Of a stretch of DNA of 64,000 bases, positions 3,344 to 48,860 are shown in pieces. Source of the DNA: Nitrospira japonica (lineage in GTDB: Bacteria > Nitrospirota > Thermodesulfovibrionia > UBA6902). The translations under genes and the position numbers were made by a program. The stretch lies in the NCBI GenBank assembly GCA_020723105.1, contig DYJL01000009.1, positions 1 through 64,000 of the forward strand, given 5' to 3'. The notes beneath the pieces were generated by a model. That model was not told where the DNA came from. It worked only from the letters and a program-made list of their open reading frames with translations, and searched no databases. Numbering within the stretch: position 1 is the stretch's first letter; each line of letters opens with the position of its first letter.

Positions 3344-4369
3344 TCACTCTATTACAATCTTCCCTTTTCCCTTTTGTACTTCTCCAATAATCCAGTAAGA
3401 CATTTTTTCTTTTTTTGCAACGTTATCAAATTTTTTCAATCCTTTTGACGGAAGCGCAATGAGCAGGCCGCCGGATGTTTGCGGATCAGACAGGATAAGC
3501 TGTGCCTCTTTGGGAAAGTTTACAGGAAATATTACATCCCTGCTGCAAAAAACAAAATTCCTGTGCGCCCCCTTTGGCGCCAGACCCAATGCTGCATATT
3601 TTCTTACGCCCTTCATCAAGGGCACCTTATCATAGGAAATCACAAGGTCTGCTCCTGAGCTTTTTGCTATATTTAATCCGTGTCCCAACAAACCAAACCC
3701 AGTAACATCGGTTGCAGACTGTGCTCCACACATGACAGCAGCTTTTGATGCCGTCTTATTAAGTTTCAGCATTGACGCAACAACCTCTTTCAAAGCATGA
3801 TTTTTCAGCTTGCCGCGTTTATATGCAGAAGTAATAATACCTGTACCGAGAGGTTTTGTGAGAATAAGGATATCTCCTGGTGAAGCCCCATCTGTCTTTA
3901 AAATTGTTTTTGTTTCAATTATGCCTGTTACTGCAAGACCAAATTTAAACTCATTATCTTCAATGCTGTGTCCGCCGATAAGACAAGCGCCTGCTTCTTC
4001 GAGTTTATCAATACAGCCTTTTAAGAGTTTTTTAATTACCAAAGAGCTGAAATCACAGGACGCAAAACCCAATATGGCAAGGGCTGTAAGAGGTATTCCC
4101 CCCATAGCATATACATCGCTTACCGCATTTGCAGCGCATATAGCTCCAAATGTATAAGGGTCGTCAACAATAGGGGTAATAACATCTACAGTTTCAACTA
4201 ACAGCGTGTTATTGTATCGGAATATGCCCGCATCGTCACCGGGGCCTACCACAACATTTTTGTTTTTACATCTGTAGATATCCGCTAATATCTCCGATAG
4301 GTCCGCCGGACCTAACTTTGCCGCTCAACCGCCTGCTTTTACTTTTTCTGTAAGCTTGATGTTTTTCAT
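3344..4369 (-). CDS. selD: Selenide, water dikinase (Sec-containing)
   Basis: Makes selenophosphate from selenide and ATP, the selenium donor for Sec-tRNA and selenouridine. Reading from the ATG at 4367-4369 gives 341 residues with an in-frame TGA (4325-4327) as codon 15, in the context GGU-AAK. The TGA occupies the known catalytic Cys/Sec position and is followed by the catalytic Lys18. Downstream come the GPGDDAGIF nucleotide-binding motif (about 42-50) and the GGHSIEDNEFKFGL segment typical of SelD. Starting at the internal ATG (4252) would lose the active site. No selA, selB or tRNA-Sec lies in the window, so the rest of the pathway must be elsewhere. Confidence 0.95.
4298..4314 (-). promoter_or_regulatory. 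Candidate SECIS hairpin in selD
   Basis: Starting 10 nt after the selD TGA, the mRNA can form a perfect 7-bp stem, TAGGTCC/GGACCTA, with a GGC loop. Bacterial SECIS elements lie just downstream of the UGA inside the coding sequence. Position and strength fit, though the loop is shorter than in the E. coli fdhF element. Confidence 0.5.
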
Positions 4370-47160: not shown

Positions 47161-47165
47161 CCCAC

Positions 47166-47300
47166 ATTATTCATAAATCTGGAGGAAGTGTGGCTCAAAA
47201 ACATATTGCGCGATACCTTAGCGACAACAGAACAAATACCCTATGTAAATTTAAGACTCAAAATTCAACATTTAAAAATCTTATCGCTTTCAAGATGAAG
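47166..47300 (+). mobile_element. MITE-like element, copy C (right arm missing)
   Basis: Left arm ATTATTCATAAATCTGGAGG with AAGTGTGGCTC, then an interior matching the minus-strand reading of copy B (AAAACATATTG.GCGATACC, TTCAAGATG). No clear right arm is found before the yedE gene. The rest of the 47160-47414 gap shows no gene. Confidence 0.6.
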
Positions 47301-47413
47301 GGCAGTACTTTTTATTTTACCTTGCCTAAGTTACGTCATTAGAAAAATGTCATTTATGAAAATTCTGAAACAATCTGCCATATCTGATAAAAGATATTAA
47401 ATAAGGAGATGCT

Positions 47414-48634
47414 ATGACTCTTTCTGAATATCTTTATGAAAACTTTTACAGGAAAAACTTTACCAGGACATGGTCCAAATTGCGAGGAGGGGTATTATTG
47501 GCATTTTTAAATATTCTGCTGTTCTTATTCTTAATGCCGATAGGCGGAGTATATCCAGCAATGGCAGACTGGGGCATCTGGTTATACAGGCTTGCAGGAA
47601 TAAATATTCAGCCGCCGTGGGGCACTTTGGAATTGCCGCATTTGAGCATAATAAGTGTGTTGAATTTCGGTTTAATACTGGGTTTTTTTTCATCAGCGCT
47701 CTTAACCAGGCAATTCAAGGTCAGAAAAGATACCATTTCCGGATATGCCCAGGGATTTATCGGAGGGGCGTTCATGGGCATAGGCAGTTTTCTGGCCGGC
47801 GCCTGTATTATAGGCGGTTTTTATTCAGCAATTATGTCCTTATCATTAAGCGGGTTCTATATGATGGCAGGTTTACTTATTGGCGGATATTATGGTGGAA
47901 AAATGTTGATGTGGCAGGGGCGCAAAAAGGCTGAAAAGCTGATAGCTGAAATTAGAATAGTGCCAAAAAGTTCAGTCGGGATTGAGAAAGAATACAAATC
48001 CAGGCAACCAGCAATAGGGATTCTCCTCACGATTATTCTGGTCGCTGCATCTTCAATTTATTTCTTAGCGGGGAAGAATCTACATGGAGGGATAATGCTT
48101 TTTGGCGCGGCCTTTGGCCTTGTCATTCAAAGGTCTGCATTTTGCCTTTGTGGTGCATTCAGAGAAGTGTTTACAACAAAGAAGAATGAAACCATGCGTT
48201 CCCTTATGATCAGTCTTGTAATAGGAGTCATCGGATTTACTATTATTAAGGCAAATGGATTCCGGCCTGCAGATATGTTTGTTCTTCCGGCAGGCTGGCA
48301 CAGCGTTATCGGAGGGGCCCTATTCGGGTTTGGCATGGTCATAACCGGAGGTTGAGCAGTTGGAATTATCGGCAGGTCTGCCGAAGGATATATCAGGCAC
48401 TGGTTTGCAGTTCTTGGAGCCATGCTTGTTGCAGGCTTATGGGTGCCGCTTTACGGTTCCCAGGTTGGAACCGGCAAGCTTTATGGAACACCTGTGTTCC
48501 TGCCCGATAAGTTTGGCTGGGGAGGGGCTTTACTCATCACTTTATCAATTATCATACTTTTTTATTTCTTTATTGCATGGATTGAGTTCAGAAAGAAAAA
48601 GGTCAGAAAGAAAGGGGGTGCAATAAATGGGTGA
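47414..48634 (+). CDS. YeeE/YedE-family transporter, predicted selenoprotein
   Basis: 406 residues when the TGA at 48353-48355 is read as Sec314. The preceding ITGG and following AVGIIGRS-type sequence match the GGC-A-G motif near the C-terminus of YeeE/YedE transporters, where the residue is Cys. Reading on adds two or more hydrophobic helices and ends cleanly at 48634. Multi-pass inner-membrane protein with other conserved Cys (GACIIGG, RSAFCLCGAF). Family members take up thiosulfate (YeeE) or are linked to selenium metabolism (YedE). The stop overlaps the TusA-like gene by 8 nt. AAGGAG precedes the ATG. Confidence 0.88.
48353..48395 (+). promoter_or_regulatory. Candidate SECIS hairpin in yedE
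   Basis: After the TGA, 15 nt lead into a stem that spans TCGGCA-GGTC-TGCCGA. The apical CGGCAGGTCTGCCG has the same AGGTCT loop core as the E. coli fdhF SECIS, where SelB binds, and its distance from the TGA differs by about one nt from fdhF. Strong support for Sec insertion rather than termination. Confidence 0.7.
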
Positions 48635-48860
48635 GCATTTTGAAGTAGATATAAGAAATACGATGTGACCATATCCAAAATATGTAATTCCACAAGTTTT
48701 GGAAAAACTTGCAAACGCAGAAAAAGGCACAGTAGTAGATGTCTTAGTTGACTGTCCATCTGCAATAGATGAAATACCAGGGATATTCAGCGGGGAAGGA
48801 TATACGGTAAATACAACTCAGATTGCCGATGGTGAGTACAGGATAAGGGCGGAAAAATAG
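48627..48860 (+). CDS. TusA/SirA-like protein, predicted selenoprotein
   Basis: 77 residues with TGA (48666-48668) as codon 14 in TM-U-PYPKYVIPQVL, exactly at the first Cys of the CPxP motif that carries persulfide in TusA/YeeD/YedF proteins. A second Cys remains (VDCPSA). Starts inside the end of yedE. In YeeE-YeeD pairs the TusA-like partner receives the chalcogen from the transporter. Here both partners would have Sec at the relay position. Confidence 0.88.

Follow-up and report, generated by a model that had tools for sequence, protein, structure and literature searches.

Predicted selenocysteine forms of a YeeE/YedE-family sulfur transporter and its TusA-like partner carrier in a deep-subsurface bacterium

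We identified in a deep-subsurface bacterium predicted selenocysteine (Sec) forms of a membrane sulfur transporter and of its partner sulfur carrier, in both of which Sec replaces a key cysteine. The two genes lie in a 64,000-nucleotide stretch of contig DYJL01000009.1 (assembly GCA_020723105.1), which was analysed as a whole and is referred to here as the window. The features of the pair, all on the forward strand, are as follows.

47403..47408, forward: Shine-Dalgarno-like AAGGAG 5' of the transporter gene, located by sequence
47414..48634, forward: YeeE/YedE-family transporter gene matching PF04143, 406 aa with the TGA at 48353 read as Sec
48353..48355, forward: putative Sec-UGA of the transporter, codon 314, in GG-U-AVG; corresponds to Cys91 of S. 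thermophila YeeE (phmmer alignment to 6leo/8k1r)
48369..48384, forward: predicted SECIS hairpin of the transporter, TCGGCA-GGTC-TGCCGA, loop 19 nt past the UGA
48627..48860, forward: TusA-family sulfur-carrier gene matching PF01206, 77 aa with the TGA at 48666 read as Sec
48666..48668, forward: putative Sec-UGA of the carrier, codon 14, in U-PYP, at the first position of the CPxP motif
48693..48711, forward: predicted SECIS hairpin of the carrier, CAAGTTTT-GGA-AAAACTTG, loop 32 nt past the UGA

The genes overlap by 8 bp, each is preceded by a Shine-Dalgarno-like sequence, and each frame contains one internal TGA. The terminal stop of the transporter, at 48632, is a TGA as well; we read it as a true stop and not as Sec, because the frame beyond it is nonsense and the sister loci terminate there or close by. 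The window's frames were scanned for other single-TGA readthroughs, the credibility of which was judged by eye, and apart from yeeE and tusA only selD was credible.

The family assignment of both proteins was clear. The transporter scored 152 bits against PF04143 (Pfam cut-off 27) and holds the relay residues C131, C244 and U314, and the carrier scored 43.3 bits against PF01206 (Pfam cut-off 28.6), with its CPxP motif reading UPYP. In Foldseek searches the best matches of the transporter were all YeeE structures. The best structure for the carrier was E. coli YedF (1je3). The AlphaFold model of the transporter, predicted from an alignment in which the E. coli row was left out, was of moderate quality (pLDDT 78.6; TM about 0.45-0.55 to YeeE). 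In NCBIfam no selenoprotein model matched the carrier, and plasmid records contained nothing beyond YedE relatives of about 27% identity.

The initial annotation had predicted both proteins to be selenoproteins with their TGAs in conserved Cys columns, and alignments to YeeE, YedF and YeeD bore this out. In the phmmer alignment with S. thermophila YeeE, Cys131 of the transporter corresponded to Cys293, Sec314 to Cys91 and Cys244 to Cys22. Sec14 of the carrier matched the CPxP cysteines of E. coli YedF (1je3) and T. maritima TM0983 and Cys17 of StYeeD. Residue 314 occupies an invariant column among 21 aligned family members; the 17 sequences of the clade all encode it by TGA, and the outgroups that were read, including E. 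coli YedE, have TGC. The transporter orthologues, 84-92% identical, have TGA at the same codon, and the carrier TGA is kept in four orthologues (that of the window and three found) and also in another subfamily with an identity of about 41%. In both genes an in-frame UGA thus takes the place of a conserved cysteine that homologues retain, which is a criterion for bacterial selenoprotein genes. The same TGA was also seen in further YeeE-like proteins, 45-51% identical (L100:8578-9747 on the reverse strand, L071, L072, L045, L047, L043 and L044), and no adjoining tusA was found at these seven loci. The third relay Cys is replaced by Gly in L043, L044 and L070.

The initial annotation had noted that family-like sequence continues beyond both TGAs. 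Strong purifying selection acts on the DNA 3' of each. For the transporter, dN/dS 3' of the TGA was about 0.05-0.17 (0.05-0.08 for the two nearest orthologues) and similar to that of the part 5' of the TGA; for the carrier it was about 0.02-0.15 against its orthologues.

SECIS elements were called by an explicit hairpin criterion combined with the background of all TGAs and with silent-site conservation, since minimum free energy folding alone gave inconsistent hairpins at several sites. In both genes a hairpin with a G in its apical loop was found just 3' of the UGA. In the transporter hairpin the core GCAGGUCUGC of E. coli fdhF recurs at a nearly equal distance from the UGA: the core GCAGGTCTGC is identical in the two, and its offset is 19 here versus 18, one base closer to the UGA, in fdhF. 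In the carrier, the nine codons of the hairpin (codons 21-29) are identical in all four orthologues, silent sites included (shuffle P = 0.0003), whereas 43 of the 63 codons 3' of the TGA vary among them and 20 of 63 are unchanged; the synonymous divergence of these orthologues from the window gene ranges from 0.24 to 1.75. As to background, 1.7% of the window's TGAs have an equally strong hairpin after them, and GGTC-loop hairpins with a stem of at least 4 bp follow 11 of 2503. Four more distantly related transporters (L096, L067, L068 and L070) had no hairpin by the ungapped criterion, although GGTC is present at the same place. Rfam at gathering thresholds gave no matches in the window.

The machinery for Sec insertion is complete in this genome. 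The initial annotation had named selA, selB and tRNA-Sec as the genes on whose presence its prediction hung, and all three were found above their cut-offs (selA at 623 bits and selB at 344 bits, both over curated cut-offs, and tRNA-Sec at 74.5 bits against a cut-off of 47). The fourth component, selD, lies in the window about 43 kb from the pair and was identified by its sequence motif; at 4327 on the reverse strand it contains a TGA of the Sec type (KAGGUAAKL). A formate dehydrogenase-like ORF with a TGA in ...CARVUHAPT... (L099:2513-5743) adjoins a second yeeE-tusA-dsrE operon of the same genome.

The standard code ends both frames at the TGA, and the pair might then be a truncated pseudogene or a set of separate short ORFs, with the TGAs being ordinary stops, sequencing errors or signs of decay. 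However, independent assemblies and 17 transporter relatives have TGA at the same codon, dN/dS past the TGAs is about 0.02-0.17, the hairpins are conserved, and the Sec machinery is complete. The ordinary-stop reading is already contradicted by these data, and we consider it highly improbable; the computational evidence shows both genes to be read through their UGA.

By alignment, the predicted Sec residues fall on defined steps of a known sulfur relay. In StYeeE-YeeD sulfur is passed from Cys293 to Cys91, then to Cys22 and finally to Cys17 of YeeD (PMC11073785), and Cys91 and Cys293 of StYeeE are indispensable (PMC11582611). Sec would thus occupy the second and the fourth position, with Cys244 as the third between them. 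The initial annotation had proposed a direct Sec-to-Sec relay; this is unlikely, because the third position (Cys22 of StYeeE, Cys244 here) is still a cysteine that falls between Sec314 and Sec14.

The window pair is flanked by nuoN about 250 bp upstream and by a PhoB/OmpR-type regulator downstream, and it stands alone, with no arsR, dsrEFH or SQR gene nearby. In several sister loci arsR precedes yeeE, and an arsR remnant was sought 5' of the window pair (47161-47413), where none was found. The genes that together mark a YTD or dsrEFH type II cluster (yedE, tusA, dsrE and two further dsr-like genes) are represented in the window by the pair only, and they are all present at a second locus of the same genome (C6, L099) and in the sister genome L064.

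The second locus carries another pair with a TGA in both genes, the transporter being 66% identical with the same TGA and the carrier 41% identical. It is preceded by ArsR-type regulators, and the genes follow in the order yeeE, tusA (U-I-P-P), dsrE (TGA), a DsrF-like gene, a DsrH-like gene, an SQR/FCC-like flavoprotein gene and a gene for another DsrE-family protein; the arrangement at L097 of DeMMO2_3 is the same. The DsrE-like protein of this operon (L099:8110-8463) has its in-frame TGA in a U-G-G-C motif. The sister genomes came from the subsurface sites DeMMO and SURF. The array arsR-dsrE(Sec)-dsrF-dsrH-yeeE(Sec)-tusA(Sec)-SQR-tauE in L064 includes the window pair's orthologue, at L096 of SURF_45 the order is arsR-yeeE(Sec)-tusA(Sec)-SQR-like, and L065 of DeMMO2_3 has arsR-yeeE-tusA and neither dsr nor SQR neighbours. 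Of the five both-TGA pairs besides that of the window, four have sulfur genes (dsrE/F/H or SQR) as neighbours. The second Sec carrier (L099:7859-8089, L097:3635-3868) is without the first proline of the motif, having U-I-P-P versus C-P-x-P. The ArsR protein of C6 resembles BigR with a score below the cut-off, and the best model for the operon flavoproteins, also below its cut-off, was a type III SQR selenoprotein model; these flavoproteins have no in-frame TGA.

Across 230 genomes of the class there are more than 100 dsrE loci of this type, each with one in-frame TGA. At the 12 Sec-dsrE loci opened across the class dsrF and dsrH come next, arsR is usually before and an SQR-like gene usually after, and no yeeE or tusA of the window kind was detectable in any of the 12. 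Sec in DsrE is thus common in the class, and the Sec-YeeE and Sec-TusA pair looks like a genus-level addition joined to the dsrE operon.

Two accounts of the pair other than sulfane-sulfur transfer into the DSR pathway were weighed. The pair could be a selenium importing and trafficking system resembling YedE/YedF or FdhT/FdhU, in which Sec would relay selenium for selenophosphate synthesis and the importer Sec would provide a selenium-dependent feedback. The top-scoring curated models for both proteins are indeed named for selenium metabolism (YedE/FdhT, NF033796, 138.7 bits; YedF, NF008242, 39.9 bits), YedE co-occurs with SelD (PMC5322559), and selD is found in the same window. However, both scores are far below the cut-offs (350 and 79, respectively), the deletion of yedE in M. 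maripaludis gave no clear selenium phenotype (PMC11097638), most of the other both-TGA pairs lie beside dsrE/F/H or SQR, and the neighbours of the related Sec dsrE are sulfur genes throughout the class. We therefore regard this account as unlikely, and on the best reading selenium import is not the main role of the pair. The initial annotation had offered selenium uptake and reactive sulfur transfer as alternatives: the former is possible in view of the nearest models, whereas the sister operons favour the transfer of sulfane sulfur.

Alternatively, the pair could import thiosulfate for assimilation in the manner of TsuA-TsuB, with Sec giving a gain in rate and with no link to DSR. This is the role of the solved homologue StYeeE-YeeD (PMC11073785), and the window pair does not adjoin dsr genes. 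Yet the TsuA models NF052577 and NF041049 scored only 93 and 82 bits against cut-offs of 400 and 645, and SQR and dsrEFH adjoin the sister pairs, which makes this account quite improbable.

We propose instead that the pair is probably a two-protein module for the import and hand-off of sulfane sulfur, in which Sec replaces an essential thiol of both partners. Most likely the transporter would move sulfane sulfur inward via Cys131, Sec314 and Cys244, in the form of thiosulfate, polysulfide or HS-. The cytoplasmic TusA-like carrier would make contact with the transporter and take the sulfur on Sec14 as a selenosulfide (Se-S), and would then hand it to cytoplasmic sulfur metabolism, probably to a Sec-containing DsrEFH type II complex encoded at another place in the genome, from which the sulfur could move onward to the DSR pathway. 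A selenolate is a better nucleophile and a better leaving group than a thiolate, and the hand-off by a selenol carrier would therefore be faster. The proposal that the pair imports sulfane sulfur and loads a selenol carrier is made by analogy with published work on DsrEFH type II and YTD clusters: the genes for DsrEFH type II accompany yeeE and tusA, Cys67 of DsrE accepts sulfur from TusA in vitro, and DsrC then receives it from DsrEFH (PMC13293266). The YTD cluster has been put forward as a candidate marker for sulfur disproportionation (PMC12998232, PMC9751629), although a cable-bacteria paper disputes this. In favour of the sulfane-sulfur module we counted the homologous pairs in dsrE(Sec)-dsrF-dsrH-SQR operons, the class-wide arsR-dsrE(Sec)-dsrFH-SQR operon and the dsrA of this genome (540 bits); against it we counted the lack of dsr neighbours at the window pair and the selenium-named, below-cut-off top models. 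More tentatively, three successive Sec proteins (YeeE, TusA and DsrE) may relay sulfane sulfur between selenium sites into the DSR pathway, with one Cys between the first two.

Parts of this system have precedents. Sec-YeeE and DsrE-like UxxC proteins are already listed as selenoprotein families (PMC9312934, PMC13188914). The listed YeeE/YedE selenoprotein (PF04143, WP_012471001.1) is of the same family and likewise has Sec directly after a conserved Gly (GU); its motif is GUxSG versus GGUAVG here, the Sec column is presumably equal, and the lists name no partner. Neither the 2022 nor the 2026 selenoproteome list contains TusA/SirA (PF01206) or a paired or triple-Sec relay, searches of the open-access literature found no Sec-TusA, and the main texts of the 2016 and 2008 selenium surveys mention neither YeeE nor SirA. 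The initial annotation had taken Sec-containing SirA-like proteins as known and knew of no pair with Sec in both partners. The pairing is indeed absent from the lists searched; however, the SirA-like selenoproteins are in neither of them, and for this reason the carrier looks newer than had been thought. Thus, relative to the sources searched, the Sec carrier and the pairing of the two Sec proteins appear to be new, and Sec-YeeE is known.

The closest functional parallel is S. thermophila YeeE-YeeD (TsuA-TsuB; PDB 8k1r/8j4c), likewise a transporter with a TusA-like partner. All four relay positions are conserved between the two systems (C293=C131, C91=U314, C22=C244, C17=U14), but here Sec is at two of them, the halves of the transporter are swapped, and identity in the structural alignment is 16-17%. 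E. coli YedE-YedF and FdhT-FdhU resemble the window pair in half order, in the full-length YedE alignment and in the overlap of the genes, and the carrier is closest to YedF; E. coli YedE and YedF, however, carry Cys, the window proteins score below the family cut-offs, and the sister operons have other neighbours. With the YTD cluster or yeeE-tusA-dsrEFH type II (PMC13293266, PMC12998232) the sister loci share yeeE, tusA, dsrE, dsrF and dsrH, plus SQR; they differ in having Sec in YeeE, TusA and DsrE, and the window copy is without dsrEFH. Neither of these two papers mentions selenium. The Tso and SAO operons cited in PMC13188914 likewise each group multiple selenoproteins that serve a single pathway, and judging by the names given there their protein families differ from those of the window pair. 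Standard annotation truncates the Sec forms of YeeE and TusA described here, as well as DsrE in many Thermodesulfovibrionia, and surveys of YTD and DsrEFH type II clusters may therefore miss or misread them. Our findings extend TusA, a widespread carrier, by a predicted Sec form and point to Sec spread through successive members of one sulfur-transfer pathway, and they offer a testable case in which the cell's cost of Sec would be met by sulfane-sulfur (Se-S) hand-off, beyond redox catalysis alone.
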